This document shows, piece after piece, positions 5,429 to 19,916 of a stretch of DNA of 27,372 nucleotides. The notes beneath the pieces are model-generated. The model was not told the DNA's origin. It did no database searches and was given only the letters and a program-made list of their open reading frames with translations. Positions within the stretch are counted from its first letter, which is position 1; each line of letters starts with the position of its first letter. The position numbers were made by a program, and so were the translations under genes. The stretch comes from a virus. Location of the stretch: IMG/VR virus record IMGVR_UViG_3300050821_006588, positions 1 through 27,372 of that record; one strand, given 5' to 3'.

Positions 5429-5769
5429 GAGCAGAATCCCGTCCGTTGCAGCGCTTCGATGATCATCGGTTTGGTCTCGTCCCAGTAGGGGTCAACGGTG
5501 GTCCAGTTCGTGGCGCCGTAACCGGTCGCGTAACTGGCGCAGATGCGTTGGTGGTTGTCGTCGGCCGTCTGCGCCCAGCTCGCCGGCATCGTCGCCCCCT
5601 CGACGTGCAACTGCTCGTAGAGAGCCACGCCGGGGTCGGTCTGCGCGGTGAGCGCGTCGTGTGGCATCGGGCGCCCGAGCTCGGTTCGGTGCGAGCAACT
5701 CGACAGCAGGGCGAACAGGCCAACGAGCATGACCCCGGCGAGTGCAATCTTGATCCAGTTCTTCGTCAT
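5425..5769 (-). CDS. small secreted lipoprotein
   Basis: Start ATG 5769 was chosen because AGGA lies eight bases upstream; ATG 5778 is possible. The 114-residue product starts MTKNWIKIALAGVMLVGLFA and continues LLSSC, a classic lipoprotein signal peptide with lipobox. After processing the Cys would be lipidated and about 90 residues exposed outside the membrane. Two further Cys (QRICASY and the penultimate residue) may form a disulphide. Small phage lipoproteins of this layout often block superinfection or DNA entry; that role is inferred here. It heads the sub-cluster with the glycosyltransferase and nucleotidyltransferase, suggesting a cell-surface alteration set. Confidence 0.7.
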   Translation of the reverse strand: MTKNWIKIALAGVMLVGLFALLSSCSHRTELGRPMPHDALTAQTDPGVALYEQLHVEGATMPASWAQTADDNHQRICASYATGYGATNWTTVDPYWDETKPMIIEALQRTGFCS

Positions 5770-5780
5770 GTCAATCATCC

Positions 5781-5807: not shown

Positions 5808-6059
5808 CTATATGTCCGTTTTGTGTTGCCTCTTTTTGGCCTGGTCGTACCGCTGCTGCGCGCCCTGCCGAGTGGGGCCCAGCGCCGCGAAGCTGTGCCC
5901 GGCGACGTCATGGCCCTCGATCAGCTCCAGATCGATCAGCGTGCCGATCAGGCTGTTGAGAGCGCGGAGTTCGCGGAGGGTGCGGACAGCCGAGCTGCCG
6001 GCGCGGATTCGGCTCTCCGTCACCCGCGCCGACAACTCATCCCATTGCTGACCATTCAT
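5808..6059 (-). CDS. conserved-looking helical protein of unknown function
   Basis: An 83-residue protein starting at ATG 6059, which overlaps the preceding stop as ATGA. It is predicted to be mostly helical, with charged heptad-like stretches (RTLRELRALNSLIGTLIDLELI) and a basic C-terminus (QQRYDQAKKRQHKTDI). There is no Cys, signal peptide or membrane segment. I do not recognise the family. The gene ends 39 bases before the lipoprotein start; the inverted repeat at 5781-5798 lies in that gap. Confidence 0.55.
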   Translation of the reverse strand: MNGQQWDELSARVTESRIRAGSSAVRTLRELRALNSLIGTLIDLELIEGHDVAGHSFAALGPTRQGAQQRYDQAKKRQHKTDI

Positions 6060-13366: not shown

Positions 13367-16300
13367 CTACAGAGCACGATCTCGACGTTGCCCGGCGCCT
13401 GATCGATTTCGGCGTCCCGGTATTCGTCGCCAAGGCCGATCCGACCAGCAAGCTCGGATTCAAGCTGCCGTCGAAATGGCAGACCACAACCCCGGTCAAG
13501 GCTAATCTGCTCGCCTGGCGGGAGGGTGATGCACTCTGCGCGGTGATGGGTCACGGCCTCGATCTGATCGACATCGACCCGCGCAACCTCGGCGACAAGC
13601 CACTACTCTGGCCGGTTACGCCACCGCCCGTTGTCGCCAGTGCTACGACGCCGAGTGGTGGTATCCACCTGTTCGTCCTCAGCCACGGCGTCCTCAGCCA
13701 CGGCGTCCTCAGCCACGGCGTCCTCAGCCACGGCGTCCTCAGCCACGGCGTCCGCAGCCGAGACGGCATCCTGCCGGGCGTCGACTTCAAGGGTGGTGAC
13801 CACGGGGAGGGCCACGGCTTCGCCTTCATCGCGCCGACCGTGAAGACCTCCAAGACGACGGGCGAGCTCGCGGGCTACCGGTGGACGTCGGTGGACTTCG
13901 ACGAGCTCAACGAGGTTTCCAAGATCAAAAATCTCGAGGTTGGCCGACCGTTCGCTGACTGGGTGCGGTCGCTCCACGGTGTTTCCAAGACCGCACCGGA
14001 AACCGACGACACGGCGAGCTACATGGACGCCGGCAGTCGCATCTTCCACACCCCCGAGACCGCCTGGTCAGCGATCCACCGGGAGCTGGCCACGGTGTGC
14101 GGATGGACGCCGGACGCCGGGGTCAACTTCCGCACCACCCTCCTGCGTGCGGCCTTCGTCCTCGGTGGCTACGTGGCCTCGGCGCTGGAGGGGTTCACAA
14201 CAGACCAGGCTACGGTGCTCCTCCTCGACGCGGTCAGGGGCGTCTACCTCAACCCCGACGACGACGACCGACTGTGGATCGAGCAGGGCCTCACCGATGG
14301 GCAGCTCCGGCCGTTCAACGTTGCCGATCGGCCGCCTACCCCGGTTGCCGGCGTCGTCTCGCGTGACCCATGGCCCGGGGAGCGGAGGGAGTTCCGGCCA
14401 CCGGTTGGGGTTGTCTCCCACCAGGCCGTCGCCGAGTGGGTGTTGTGCTACCAGTGGCCACGGTGGCGTCACCTGCACGAGACGACGACCTGGATCGTGA
14501 ACGAAAAAGAACGGTGGGGTGACCGCCCGGGCAAGCGCCTCGGCGACGCGATCCTGTCCGACACGGTCCGTTTCATGCCGGTCGGCGTCAAGCCGGACGA
14601 TCCGAAGGACCAATCCAGCTGGACCCCGGATAATTGGGCATATCACTGGTTTCAGACATTCTCCAGCTCACCCAAGTCTGCTCCGTTCGCCCGTAAGATC
14701 GACGCGCTGATCGTGGCCGGATACGACCCGAGCACCGCGTTCGACCGGGATATGGACAGCGACGGCTCCGTCTTGTGGGCAGGTGGTGTGCCGTGGAGTC
14801 TTACCGAGCCGGGCGAACGGGTCGACACCGAACTGCTCACCCCGCACCGCTGGTCGGCCGCTACCAACCCGGACTGGAGTGTGGCGACGCCGGCATGGAA
14901 TGCGTTCCTCGCTGCGGTCTGGCCGGACGCCGAGGTGCGCAACTGGGCAATTCGCGTATTGTCGATCGGCGCTACGGCCGAAGCGGATGCCGCGCTGCCG
15001 GTGCTCTACGGGCCTGCCGGCCGGGGCAAGACATCAGTCATCGCGCTCATCATGCGAGCTTTGGGCGATTACGCCCATATCGCCGATGCTCGGCTGATCT
15101 CCAAGGCCAACGCTCACCAGTCGATCAAGTACGCGCTCAAAGGCCGTCGACTCTCGTTCATCGACGAGGGCCCCCGAAACAACGAGACCGTCCGGGAGGC
15201 GTTGAAAGAGCTGACCGGTGGGGGCAACCTGACCGGCAACGCCATGGGCTCCAATCCGGTCACCTTCGCGCCCACCCACACACTGGTGATGACCAGCAAC
15301 GATGAGCCGCACATCACCGACGATGCGATCCGGCGACGCATCCGCGCGATTCCCTGCGAAGGCGACTCAGAAGACGTCCGCTTGGCCCGTAGGCGCGTCG
15401 AACTGGCGTGGAAGGTCGAGGCGCCCGGGGTGCTGGCTCAGCTCATGACCGAGGCGGCTGCGTGGCTGGCAGACCGCGATTCCGCCCTCAGCTCGGCAGC
15501 GCCGATGGAGCTGCAAGTGCGGACCGCCGAGATGGCCGAGGGGCAGGACCCGGTCAAGGCGTGGGTTGTCGAGTGCACCTCGGAGAACCAGACCGGTACC
15601 AAGGCCAGCGCGCTGCTCACCGCGTTCAACGAGTGGGGTCGAGGACAGGCGATCAAGCCGTTCAACTCGACGGCTTTCGGCAACTCGTTGAAGCGGCTTG
15701 GCGTCGTCAAAGAGCACCGCAAAGACGGTACTTACCACCTGATAGTGCTCAATGTTGGTGGAGGATTTACGTACTTTGGTCCGCCGAGGGATGTGGTGAC
15801 GAGTAAACCCGTCACGGAGGCACAGTCGTCACCTGTACCCTTCACCCCCGAAAACACGAGGTCAACCCCGGTTTTCTCTGATGCTGGTGATGGGTTGACG
15901 AGTTCAACACGAAGTACACACACAAAAAACCAAACAACACACACACACTCATATAACAGCAATAGTGACGAGGGTCGTCACCCGTCACCTTCGGCCGATA
16001 AAACCGGGGTTGACCTGCGAAAACAACCGGTGACGGCTACTGGTGACGACCCCATCACCCATCACCCCGACCCAAAAATCGCCGAAAAGCCGCAATTGAG
16101 CCGAACCGCCATGAAGGCGCGGGTCAAGGCTCAGGCGAAGGCCGAGGCAGCCTCGGCAGCTGCCGGTGCGATGATCGAGTTGCCGGCACTCGTCCGGCGC
16201 GGGCAAGCACCCGTCTCGATCTCCTCGGCCGCGGCCGTAGACGCGGTTCGCTCGGCCGTTCGGCGTGACGGGGCGCTGACGGTCGACATCGAGCACAACG

Positions 16301-17988
16301 GCTACCCGCTCGGCCACTCGCTGTTCGTCGTGAAGACGGTCCAGCTCGGCGACGCGCTGGAGGCCGTCGTCTTCGATCCTGAAGCCGACGCGTCGAACAT
16401 CCGCATGCTGATCGAGCAGGCCCCCGTACTCAAGGCGTTCAACGCCATGGCCGATCTGAGCTCGCTCGCCTACGCCGGTCTCGGCGACCATGACGCCATG
16501 TGGGCGAAAATGGAGGATGCGGCCATTCCGGCCAAATTGTCCGATCCTGCTGGCACGAGCAACTCCGATGGCCTCAAGGACACCGCAGCGAAGCTCCTCG
16601 GCAGCGCGGCCGTCGCGCCGGACGCCGAAGTCGCCAAGGACGCGCTCTTCACGACGGCCGGATGGCTAAAATCGCCCAAGTGGGCCGAAACGCCCATCGA
16701 GCGCAACGGATGGGCGCAAGTCGACCCGCGCTGCTCGACGATGGTGGTCTACGCCGCCTCTGACGTCCTCGACACGGCGCCGTTGGCCGCGTTGCTACCG
16801 GCGCACAAACCGGCGCTTCTGGGGCGCGAGCGAGACGTACAGCGGGCCACAGCCCGGCTCTCGTTCACTGGACTCAAGCTCGACCACGAGAGGGTTCTGG
16901 ACAAACACCACGAATTCACCACGAATCGGGCAAAAGCACTGGCTGACTGCGCGGCCCTTGGCGTTCCCGACCCCACCGACGCCAAGGTGGCGCGCAGGCT
17001 GGCCGAGCTCGGTGCGCCCGTTCCGCGCACGGCTGCCGGCAACCCGTCGGTGCGCAAGGGCGTTATCGAGCCGTGGGCAGCTCGGCAGGATGAGATCGGC
17101 GAGGTCGTGCGCGCGGTGATCGACAAGCGGCACTGGAGCACCGGGCTGAGCTTGATCTTGAATCCGTGGAAGTCTCTCGTCGAGCAGGGTGACGGCCGCG
17201 TGCGCAGCACGATCTACACCCTCGGCGCGGACACCGGCCGCATGTCGAGCGTCCGGCAGAACATGCAACAGGTGTCCAAAGAGGGTGGTTTGCGGGAATG
17301 CATTCAGGCTGATGACGGAAAGCGGCTCATTTCGGCGGACTTCAGCGGCGTCGAAATCCGTGTCATGGCGGCATTGTCCGGTGATCCAGCGCTCAAGGCG
17401 ATCATCGAATACGACGATGCCCATCCCGGTCAGAAGATGGACCTGCACTGGATCATCGCCCGGATGGTCTACGGACCGAACGCGACGAAGGCGAATCGCT
17501 ACAACGTCAAGTCCGACGTGTTCGGCCGCTTCTACGGCGGCGGCGCCGAAACGCTGGCAGAGGAGTCCGGTGAGACCGTCGAGACCACTCAGCGCGTGCT
17601 CGACTTCCTTGATCAGCTTGCACCGACGATGACGGCCTTCGCCAAGCACATCAAGGCGTCCGTCAAGAATGGCTACCGCGAATATCCGACCTACAGCGGG
17701 CGCACGATCATCTTCGATCCGCGCTTCCCTCACAAGACACCGAATTTCGTCGTGCAGGGAACGGCACGCGAGCTCGCGGTGGACGCGATTCTGCGGTGGG
17801 AAGACACGCCGTATGCCGGTGATGTGGTGTTGCCGGTGCACGACGAGATCGTGGCTCAGGTGGACGAGGACAACGCCGAGGGCGCACAACAGGAGCTGTT
17901 GCGGTGCATGACAACCGACCTCAACGGCGTCCACATCAAGGCTGAGCCGGGTGATGGTCCGAGTGATCACTGGTGGTCGGCCGTGTGA
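13363..17988 (+). CDS. fused Prim-Pol primase, SF3 helicase, DEDDy exonuclease and family A DNA polymerase
   Basis: A single 1541-residue protein starting at GTG 13363 with AGGAG seven bases upstream. Residues 1-190 are a Prim-Pol primase: DID with D70/D72, SGGIH with H102 and DFKGG with K143. About 520-690 is a superfamily 3 helicase: GPAGRGKTS (550-558), FIDE (D601/E602), MTSN (N646) and IRRRIR (657-661), followed by a winged-helix-like region. Residues 806-935 are a Ser/Thr/Pro-rich linker. About 965-1140 is a proofreading exonuclease: DIE (D975/E977), FNAMAD (N1027/D1031) and YAASD (Y1130/D1134). About 1145-1541 is a PolA-type polymerase: TGRMSS, motif A DFSGVEIR (D1326/E1331), motif B R1379-K1383-F1387-Y1391 and motif C HDE (1493-1495). 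All catalytic residues are present and no frameshift was seen, so one polypeptide could prime, unwind, copy and proofread. Confidence 0.92.
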   Translation: MTTEHDLDVARRLIDFGVPVFVAKADPTSKLGFKLPSKWQTTTPVKANLLAWREGDALCAVMGHGLDLIDIDPRNLGDKPLLWPVTPPPVVASATTPSGGIHLFVLSHGVLSHGVLSHGVLSHGVLSHGVRSRDGILPGVDFKGGDHGEGHGFAFIAPTVKTSKTTGELAGYRWTSVDFDELNEVSKIKNLEVGRPFADWVRSLHGVSKTAPETDDTASYMDAGSRIFHTPETAWSAIHRELATVCGWTPDAGVNFRTTLLRAAFVLGGYVASALEGFTTDQATVLLLDAVRGVYLNPDDDDRLWIEQGLTDGQLRPFNVADRPPTPVAGVVSRDPWPGERREFRPPVGVVSHQAVAEWVLCYQWPRWRHLHETTTWIVNEKERWGDRPGKRLGDAILSDTVRFMPVGVKPDDPKDQSSWTPDNWAYHWFQTFSSSPKSAPFARKIDALIVAGYDPSTAFDRDMDSDGSVLWAGGVPWSLTEPGERVDTELLTPHRWSAATNPDWSVATPAWNAFLAAVWPDAEVRNWAIRVLSIGATAEADAALPVLYGPAGRGKTSVIALIMRALGDYAHIADARLISKANAHQSIKYALKGRRLSFIDEGPRNNETVREALKELTGGGNLTGNAMGSNPVTFAPTHTLVMTSNDEPHITDDAIRRRIRAIPCEGDSEDVRLARRRVELAWKVEAPGVLAQLMTEAAAWLADRDSALSSAAPMELQVRTAEMAEGQDPVKAWVVECTSENQTGTKASALLTAFNEWGRGQAIKPFNSTAFGNSLKRLGVVKEHRKDGTYHLIVLNVGGGFTYFGPPRDVVTSKPVTEAQSSPVPFTPENTRSTPVFSDAGDGLTSSTRSTHTKNQTTHTHSYNSNSDEGRHPSPSADKTGVDLRKQPVTATGDDPITHHPDPKIAEKPQLSRTAMKARVKAQAKAEAASAAAGAMIELPALVRRGQAPVSISSAAAVDAVRSAVRRDGALTVDIEHNGYPLGHSLFVVKTVQLGDALEAVVFDPEADASNIRMLIEQAPVLKAFNAMADLSSLAYAGLGDHDAMWAKMEDAAIPAKLSDPAGTSNSDGLKDTAAKLLGSAAVAPDAEVAKDALFTTAGWLKSPKWAETPIERNGWAQVDPRCSTMVVYAASDVLDTAPLAALLPAHKPALLGRERDVQRATARLSFTGLKLDHERVLDKHHEFTTNRAKALADCAALGVPDPTDAKVARRLAELGAPVPRTAAGNPSVRKGVIEPWAARQDEIGEVVRAVIDKRHWSTGLSLILNPWKSLVEQGDGRVRSTIYTLGADTGRMSSVRQNMQQVSKEGGLRECIQADDGKRLISADFSGVEIRVMAALSGDPALKAIIEYDDAHPGQKMDLHWIIARMVYGPNATKANRYNVKSDVFGRFYGGGAETLAEESGETVETTQRVLDFLDQLAPTMTAFAKHIKASVKNGYREYPTYSGRTIIFDPRFPHKTPNFVVQGTARELAVDAILRWEDTPYAGDVVLPVHDEIVAQVDEDNAEGAQQELLRCMTTDLNGVHIKAEPGDGPSDHWWSAV
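13675..13749 (+). repeat. five tandem 15-bp units in the primase domain
   Basis: Five exact copies of gtcctcagccacggc encode VLSHG five times (residues 105-129). They lie between the primase His motif (H102) and the DFKGG motif (K143). A sixth, degraded unit follows. Because the unit is 15 bp, slippage would change length without breaking the frame. Confidence 0.95.
15796..16048. other. putative replication origin: GTGACG iterons around a CA/AT-rich tract
   Basis: Exact GTGACG or its complement occurs eight times: 15796, 15810, 15827, 15965, 15976, 15983, 16030 and 16043. The extended consensus is GGTGACGRSY. The copies fall in all three codon positions of the polymerase gene, so protein coding does not explain them. 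Copies at 15965 and 15976 form a hairpin with 7-bp arms. GGTGATGGG variants occur at 15885 and as the complement near 16052-16066. Between the two clusters lies a CA/AT-rich tract (about 15901-15963) suited to duplex opening. Lambda has its origin similarly inside its initiator gene. Confidence 0.6.
15859..16016. repeat. 17-bp inverted repeat flanking the CA/AT-rich tract
   Basis: Bases 15859-15875 (aggtcaaccccggtttt) are the exact reverse complement of 16000-16016, 124 bases apart. The arms enclose the CA/AT-rich tract and three of the iterons. As single-stranded DNA they could close a large stem-loop. Confidence 0.85.
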
Positions 17989-17993
17989 TCGAG

Positions 17994-18035
17994 GTGACCC
18001 TCGTTGTGTCCAATTTTGGACACAACGAGGGTCAC
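17994..18035. terminator. perfect 42-bp palindrome after the polymerase gene
   Basis: Bases 17994-18013 are the exact reverse complement of 18016-18035, with only tt between them. It begins six bases after the polymerase stop. The RNA hairpin would be very stable, as for a terminator, but no U tract follows. As DNA the site could bind a dimeric protein or extrude as a cruciform. Terminator is the conservative call. Confidence 0.5.
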
Positions 18036-19472: not shown

Positions 19473-19916
19473 ATGCCAACACCACGCAAGCGCAGCGAAG
19501 ACCGGCTCAGTCACACGAACCCGGACGACCCGCCGATGTACGAGGTGGCGCCCGCAACCGCCGCGCTGAAGGACTTCTGCCCATTCGAGCACGACGACTC
19601 CAACCCGGAGTGGCACCCGATCGCCCAGCGCTGGTACGACTCGCTGTTCGTCAGTGAGCAGGCAGCGATGTACGCGCGGTCGGACGTCGCCCACATCGAG
19701 CTCGCGGCGCATCTGCTGTCCGATCAGCTCTACGCCGACCGCTGGTCCGCGATGGCCATGCACGAGATCGTCGGCATGATGGACAACGCGCTCACCTCGG
19801 TGGGCGCTCGGCTGCAGCGCCGCGTCGAGACCATCAAGAAGACGACGCCGGAGCGCTCACGCGGCCAGATCGCCCGTGAGCAGATCGTGGCTCAGTTCAG
19901 CCCACGCTCGGCATGA
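19473..19916 (+). CDS. terS: terminase small subunit (putative)
   Basis: A 147-residue protein starting at ATG 19473 behind CAGGAGGT, the strongest ribosome-binding site in the late region. The N-terminus is basic (MPTPRKRSEDRLSH). The rest is mostly helical (SEQAAMYARSDVAHIELAAH, then MDNALTSVGARLQRRVETIKK), as in small terminase subunits that recognise phage DNA and hand it to the large subunit. The sequence itself is not diagnostic; the call rests on size, charge and the ATGA overlap with the large subunit gene. Confidence 0.7.
   Translation: MPTPRKRSEDRLSHTNPDDPPMYEVAPATAALKDFCPFEHDDSNPEWHPIAQRWYDSLFVSEQAAMYARSDVAHIELAAHLLSDQLYADRWSAMAMHEIVGMMDNALTSVGARLQRRVETIKKTTPERSRGQIAREQIVAQFSPRSA

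Follow-up and report, generated by a model that had tools for sequence, protein, structure and literature searches.

A probable iteron-type replication origin within the translated linker of a fused primase-helicase/PolA phage gene

Origins read by helicases in described systems

In satellite phage P4, the alpha protein uses its winged helix to bind the repeats of the origin, after which unwinding and priming follow, and the P4 primase is of the Toprim type (PMC4234260). In SaPI-type replicators, represented by SaPI/PICI Rep and SCCmec Cch2, the C-terminal domain of the helicase recognises short iterons that follow immediately after its own gene (PMC7581432), and an AT-rich region is flanked by two sets of iterons (PMC6092414). 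In lambda, the repeats of ori are bound by the initiator and lie inside the initiator's own O gene; these repeats are 19 bp long and are dimer bound (PMC5043065). Helicase-recognised origins are already known, and what is new in the locus described here is an iteron origin, inferred to be recognised by the helicase, that is also coding sequence.

The fused gene and the repeats in its linker

The stretch analysed (here, the window) spans an entire IMG/VR record (27,372 bp), and the contig is possibly incomplete. A nucleotide search of phage records with the window gave no match, and Rfam, tRNA, and promoter scans returned nothing relevant. The window contains one long gene for a fused replisome protein (Table 1), in which residues ~500 to 790 matched phage primase/helicase families and DUF5906 and residues 968 to 1533 matched family A DNA polymerase. 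Against TIGR01613 (primase_Cterm; "phage/plasmid primase, P4 family"), whose curated cut-off is 108.7, the excised helicase region passed with 109.6 bits and the full-length protein fell just short with 105.4. The N-terminus is prim-pol-like by eye only, without a Pfam hit, and the protein family scan found no O-like domain in the fused protein. An AlphaFold2 model of residues 470 to 806, for which 19 relatives were used (pLDDT, 86; pTM, 0.80), predicted an AAA+ core followed by a C-terminal winged helix of the strand-helix-helix-strand-strand type. The PDB neighbours of this model were AsfvPrimPol, poxvirus E5/D5, and the SaPI5 primase-helicase 7ola. The linker between the helicase and polymerase parts looks disordered at the protein level, being rich in Thr, Pro, and Ser and containing Val-Thr, Thr-Gly, and Thr-His repeats. 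The integrity of the fused protein has not been shown.

Table 1. Features of the fused gene and of the proposed origin (window coordinates)
Feature	Position	Strand	Basis or remark
Fused replisome gene, 1541 aa	13363..17988	+	Primase-like N-terminus, SF3 helicase, winged helix, linker, family A DNA polymerase
P4-family (TIGR01613) SF3/AAA+ helicase with C-terminal winged helix	14770..15780	+	Walker A GPAGRGKT
Winged-helix domain, residues ~739-796, proposed iteron reader	15577..15750	+	AlphaFold2 secondary structure; column association
H785 codon	15715-15717	+	Inside winged-helix domain
Low-conservation linker, residues ~808-970, proposed origin	15784..16272	+	Repeat and identity analyses
Iteron GTGACG(AGT)	15796..15801	+	Hexamer search; relatives' matrix
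Iteron GTGACGGGTTT, contig's best match to relatives' motif (matrix hit at 15802)	15810..15815	-	Hexamer search; matrix
Iteron GTGACG	15827..15832	-	Hexamer search
Degenerate iteron GGGTGAAGGGTACAGG, ~49 bp ahead of forward pair as in relatives	15832..15847	-	Matrix; spacing
Left arm, perfect 17-bp inverted repeat AGGTCAACCCCGGTTTT	15859..15875	+	Repeat analysis
Core forward iteron pair, degenerate: GGTGATGGGTTG and GTTGACGAGTTC	15885..15908	+	Matrix; pair geometry
CA/AT-rich tract, GC 0.37, proposed unwinding element	15903..15962		GC scan
Iteron GTGACG	15965..15970	+	Hexamer search
Core reverse iteron pair, spacing 7 (CGTCACCCGTCAC)	15976..15988	-	Hexamer search; matrix
Right arm, perfect 17-bp inverted repeat	16000..16016	-	Repeat analysis
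Iteron GTGACG	16030..16035	+	Hexamer search
Iteron GTGACG	16043..16048	+	Hexamer search
Two degenerate reverse iterons (CCCATCACCCATCACCCC)	16051..16068	-	Matrix
Exonuclease-like/family A DNA polymerase part, residues 968-1533	16264..17961	+	Protein family matches

An earlier note on this DNA, made without database searches, had proposed an iteron-like origin in the linker on the basis of eight exact GTGACG/CGTCAC hexamers at 15796 to 16048. All eight were recovered, on both strands and in all three codon frames (frames 0, 2, 1, 1, 0, 1, 0, and 1 in order of position), and the CA/AT tract placed between their two clusters proved to be the 60 bp of lowest GC content in the fused gene. One check that the note had suggested, enrichment of the hexamer over the contig, gave none: 42 copies are present compared with 36.7 ± 5.9 expected, which points to local clustering, and generic enrichment was rejected. 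GTGACG/CGTCAC forms the densest hexamer cluster in the contig (8 per 253-bp window; fewer than 8 for every other hexamer). With all hexamers allowed, the densest cluster in Markov sequences held no more than 7 copies at order 1 (100 runs), and 2 of 60 order-4 sequences reached 8. Taken by itself, the hexamer count is therefore only moderately surprising and no more than suggestive.

The repeat signal of the window is nevertheless firm, because it also rests on repeated 8-mers, a long inverted repeat, and degenerate copies found with a motif from other loci. A 450-bp segment of the linker contains 41 repeated 8-mer pairs (16 direct and 25 inverted) versus a maximum of 21 to 22 in 600 synonymous-codon shuffles, and the helicase and polymerase control segments of the window stay at the null level. 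The perfect 17-bp inverted repeat is part of a 37-nt dyad (81%); its arms enclose the 60 bp with the lowest GC content in the gene, and it is centred on the CA/AT tract. A matrix built from nine relatives only, with the window excluded (motif TGACGGGTTG), places 9 sites in positions 15780 to 16070 (290 bp), whereas no comparable stretch elsewhere has more than 2. Several copies of a short motif within a few hundred base pairs, above chance and codon constraint and with a low-GC element adjacent to them, are what is expected of an iteron origin, and both features are present. No DnaA boxes were found in the window, and a DnaA-dependent origin is not supported there.

Two other repeats were seen in and near the gene. 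Exact 15-bp tandem repeats of CGTCCTCAGCCACGG (VLSHG) in the primase part, at 13674 to 13763, give the strongest direct-repeat signal of the contig and are possibly unstable. Just past the stop codon of the fused gene, at 17994 to 18035, there is a perfect 20-bp inverted repeat with a 2-nt loop, which may be a terminator or another hairpin.

Related fusions and unfused counterparts

Single-protein scans of viral contigs found nothing. Relatives were obtained via an alignment of the PolA part, which gave first L005 to L007 and, after refinement, GTDB genomes and more IMG/VR contigs. In total, 23 related primase-helicase/PolA fusions were found in actinobacterial prophages and phages, the GTDB hosts being Micromonospora, Labedaea, Haloactinopolyspora, Nocardioides, Jatrophihabitans, and others. 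With the window, the set comprises 24 distinct loci, each with a single ORF of ~1500 to 2000 codons in which the primase-helicase is joined to PolA. No description of this fusion family was found in the literature searched.

A motif-free scan counting repeated 8-mer pairs in 350-bp windows identified the linker as the top repeat segment in 18 of the 24 fused loci (one tied), most of these linkers having 60 to 250 pairs versus medians of 4 to 12. The linker of the window ranks second in its own locus, behind the 15-bp tandem repeat of the primase part. Eighteen of the 24 linkers, including that of the window, exceed all 300 synonymous shuffles, in which the protein is fixed, and all 300 codon-permutation shuffles, and no helicase or polymerase control segment beats both sets. 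The linker is poorly conserved as a protein, in line with the earlier note: its amino acid identity is 14% to 16%, versus 48% to 55% in the helicase and polymerase, and the relatives keep repeats at this position despite that divergence. The lowest-GC 60 bp of the gene are located in the linker in 14 of the 16 loci examined.

Five fused relatives (L005, L111, L112, L116, and L117) have weak iteron arrays or none, and four of these five have long inverted repeats at the linker position. In L089, L107, and L093, where the PolA homologue is not joined to a helicase, the upstream DNA holds no array, and no clear array was found between the primase-helicase and PolA of the unfused actinophages Shady and Adumb2043. 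Other peculiarities were seen in single loci. L102, which has a different helicase, carries a 53-nt inverted repeat (77%) in its linker (5718 to 5770 and 5885 to 5937), one arm of which contains AGGTCAAC, as does the 17-bp repeat of the window. In the L005 ORF (4158 to 9875), an apparent intein splits the helicase Walker A motif (GENGK-ALDVDTP...VPTHN-TT), and the L115 ORF (2971 to 8538) exceeds its siblings by ~200 to 300 codons on the PolA side, possibly owing to an insert or a polymerase intein.

The iterons form a family of motifs of about 8 to 11 bp. Nine relatives have TGACGGGT(T) in common, and the other loci have TGGAGGGT, TGACCAGT, TGCAGGGT, or TGGCGGGT. In the whole records of eight relatives (270 kb), the linker accounts for 77 of the 83 copies of the TGACGGGT core, and the remaining 6 equal the number for a reversed control word; equal density elsewhere, which would have counted against the earlier proposal, was thus not observed. 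The other refuting condition named in the note, relatives with the same linker protein and no repeats, was likewise not fulfilled, the relatives keeping repeats where the protein has diverged. The spacing is conserved, the typical layout being > 21 > 11 > 18 < 49 > 9 > ~80 < 9 <. All forward TGAC copies (59/59) are outside the TGA stop frame, as is required if the linker is translated. When the core was searched for without a motif, as two forward copies, a gap of 55 to 125 bp, and two reverse copies, matches were obtained in 12 fused linkers and nowhere else in those loci. The tract between the iteron pairs of the relatives is low in GC or consists of alternating CA/CG. In the cores of L086, L103, L105, L109, and L115, this tract is often of the alternating type (e.g., ACACGCGCGCACACACGCAC), which is Z-DNA-prone and not AT-rich.

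In the window, the core is recognisable and degenerate, with forward copies at 15886 and 15895, reverse copies at 15976 and 15983, and a reverse copy at ~15838, at the expected 49 bp. With one mismatch allowed, the window linker does not satisfy the strict pair geometry; allowing two removes the specificity in the window, where 28 places then match and the linker is not among them. With the window's own word, TGACGAGT, the linker is the sole match of the pair geometry; as a control, 13 of 300 shuffled TGACGGGT words gave some match. The two iteron sets around an AT-rich region that mark SaPI/PICI replicators are accordingly clear in the relatives and degenerate in the window.

The earlier note had suggested that the helicase or its winged-helix region may bind the repeats. 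This gains support from the P4-family assignment, from the modelled C-terminal winged helix, and from a comparison of ten TGACG-type loci with seven others over 1466 protein alignment columns. The best-correlated column is H785 in the wing (His in 9/10 versus 0/7; Fisher, 4e-4), and the top ten columns also include residue 791, which belongs to the second wing strand. The H785 value would not survive correction over 1466 columns, and with relatedness controlled only in part it serves as supporting evidence only. The winged helix of the fused protein (P4/D5 type) is the most likely reader of the TGACGGGT-family iterons, although binding is inferred. Strong iterons are missing from L117, whose three strict DnaA boxes (TTATCCACA twice and TTGTCCACA) are all in the linker; the other 23 loci have three such boxes in total, none of them in a linker. 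This suggests that L117 is a host-DnaA-dependent variant. Its boxes are at 5705 to 5739 and 5949 to 5957, and two of them form an inverted pair.

Unfused distant homologues of the helicase are encoded by the mycobacteriophages Aminay, Fionnbharth, DismalFunk, and KiSi. In all four, an iteron array with the same core layout begins right after the helicase gene ends, and those loci contain no other match. The iterons are phage specific (AGTGTCGGA, AGGGACAT, AGGGACGG, and AGTACAGAT; L121 to L124). These arrays, composed of an iteron pair, an AT tract, and an inverted pair, are likely replication origins, and no published description of an origin directly 3' of the Weiservirinae primase-helicase gene was found in the literature searched. 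The array DNA of Fionnbharth and KiSi carries no annotated gene. In DismalFunk, hypothetical gene 73 (L123, 6047 to 6475) is annotated across the array and could be a spurious ORF or a second translated origin.

Interpretation, alternatives, and comparison with known systems

We consider it highly probable that the linker DNA at ~15784 to 16070 is the replication origin of this phage, an iteron origin of the P4/SaPI type bound by the winged helix of the helicase itself. The earlier interpretation is upheld to this extent, with origin function, like binding and replication, remaining an inference from the repeats, their position, their conservation at the DNA level beyond codon constraint, the geometry kept in the relatives, and the counterpart in unfused phages. 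The minimum in GC skew that had been predicted near the site was absent both from the window and across the relatives (mean right-minus-left skew, -0.002 ± 0.008; 24 loci); this feature would have been supportive and is not a defining one.

The same repeats could instead be operators for repression or silencing of the fused gene, exerted by its own product or by a different regulator, with no origin involved. Iteron origins often double as autoregulatory sites, and iterons confined to a single place could well autoregulate. We find this very improbable, as the repeats are ~2.4 kb inside the gene and away from the promoter, a low-GC tract lies between inverted pairs in a layout that recurs 3' of the mycobacteriophage helicase gene, the sibling L117 has DnaA boxes in its linker, and the copies are not dispersed over the genome as stoperators would be. 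Stoperator-like dispersed operators were rejected on the last count (77 of 83 core copies in the linker). Partition, packaging, or recombination sites (parS, pac/cos, or att) are also built of clustered repeats and might lie in the linker by chance. Against this, the repeat sequence varies between phages along with a residue of the helicase wing, and its position tracks the helicase gene whether PolA is fused or not; in addition, the terminase starts ~3.9 kb away, at 19913, and no partition protein was found among the proteins scanned (a subset of the ORFs), and we regard this possibility as very improbable.

The perfect 17-bp inverted repeat and the long inverted repeats in L005, L102, and L112 would also fit a structure formed in RNA, such as an mRNA hairpin, a terminator, or a regulatory RNA. 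RNA pairing does not demand many direct repeats with conserved spacing and a low-GC tract, and no Rfam match was obtained (covariation data are lacking); little credence can be given to this explanation. Even less can be given to the idea that a low-complexity linker protein or codon bias yields the repeats by accident. The Thr/Pro/Ser-rich, disordered-looking linker would be compatible with it, but synonymous and codon-permuted shuffles fail to reproduce the repeats, all frames and both strands are used, and the iterons persist at 14% to 16% protein identity. A codon or protein-repeat artefact was rejected on the shuffle result (41 8-mer pairs versus at most 22).

If the linker is an origin of this type, the winged helix would bind both iteron sets on either side of the low-GC tract, and the helicase could assemble as facing rings and melt that tract. 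Two helicase rings would then be loaded and unwind outward, with the attached primase and PolA domains beginning synthesis. Replication would in that case begin inside the very gene that specifies its principal enzymes. The presence of the same design 3' of the helicase in the unfused mycobacteriophages points to a fusion across a pre-existing origin: the helicase and PolA genes would have been joined in frame across it, and the origin would now be translated as a disordered linker. The family probably arose in this way, although the direction of the change is inferred. We favour, with some reservation, the broader view that a whole family of actinobacterial phages relies on one polypeptide as origin binder, helicase, primase, and polymerase, and that the in-frame helicase-PolA fusion drew the origin into the coding sequence of this replisome. 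Capture into coding sequence would mean that the iterons are selected twice, as DNA sites and as open reading frame.

The linker would be a clear example of a single DNA stretch retained in two roles, cis-acting element and translated connector, the DNA sites persisting at a protein identity of ~15%. The analysis provides replication-origin predictions, at the level of sequence, for two actinophage groups, and a rule for locating others, namely, to search directly 3' of the winged-helix codons of a P4-family helicase, coding DNA included. In addition, iteron and winged helix vary together naturally, which makes a recognition code testable.

Among known systems, the analogy to lambda drawn in the earlier note holds for placement, the repeats being inside the gene of the proposed initiator (a role that is inferred for the fused protein), and does not hold for function, for which P4 alpha and the SaPI/PICI replicators are closer. 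O is neither a helicase nor a polymerase, its 19-bp repeats contrast with the ~8- to 11-bp motif, and no O-like domain is present here. P4 alpha shares with the window protein a primase-helicase of NCBI family TIGR01613; however, its primase is of the Toprim type, whereas the N-terminus of the window protein is prim-pol-like by eye. P4 alpha is not known to carry a fused DNA polymerase, nor is the P4 origin known to lie in a linker of this kind. The P4 iteron, which we take to be GGTGAACAG, is similar to the GGTGACGRG of these loci. The Weiservirinae primase-helicases are distant homologues with phage-specific iteron pairs round a low-GC tract directly 3', but they lack the PolA fusion and their array is outside the helicase gene. 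They resemble SaPI/PICI in having iterons directly downstream of the helicase gene. The SaPI5 primase-helicase 7ola structurally matches the window model, and the array of the window, like that of SaPI/PICI, is directly 3' of the winged-helix codons. In SaPI/PICI and SCCmec Cch2, the origin is outside the helicase gene, whereas the equivalent place in the window is coding, because PolA is fused on.
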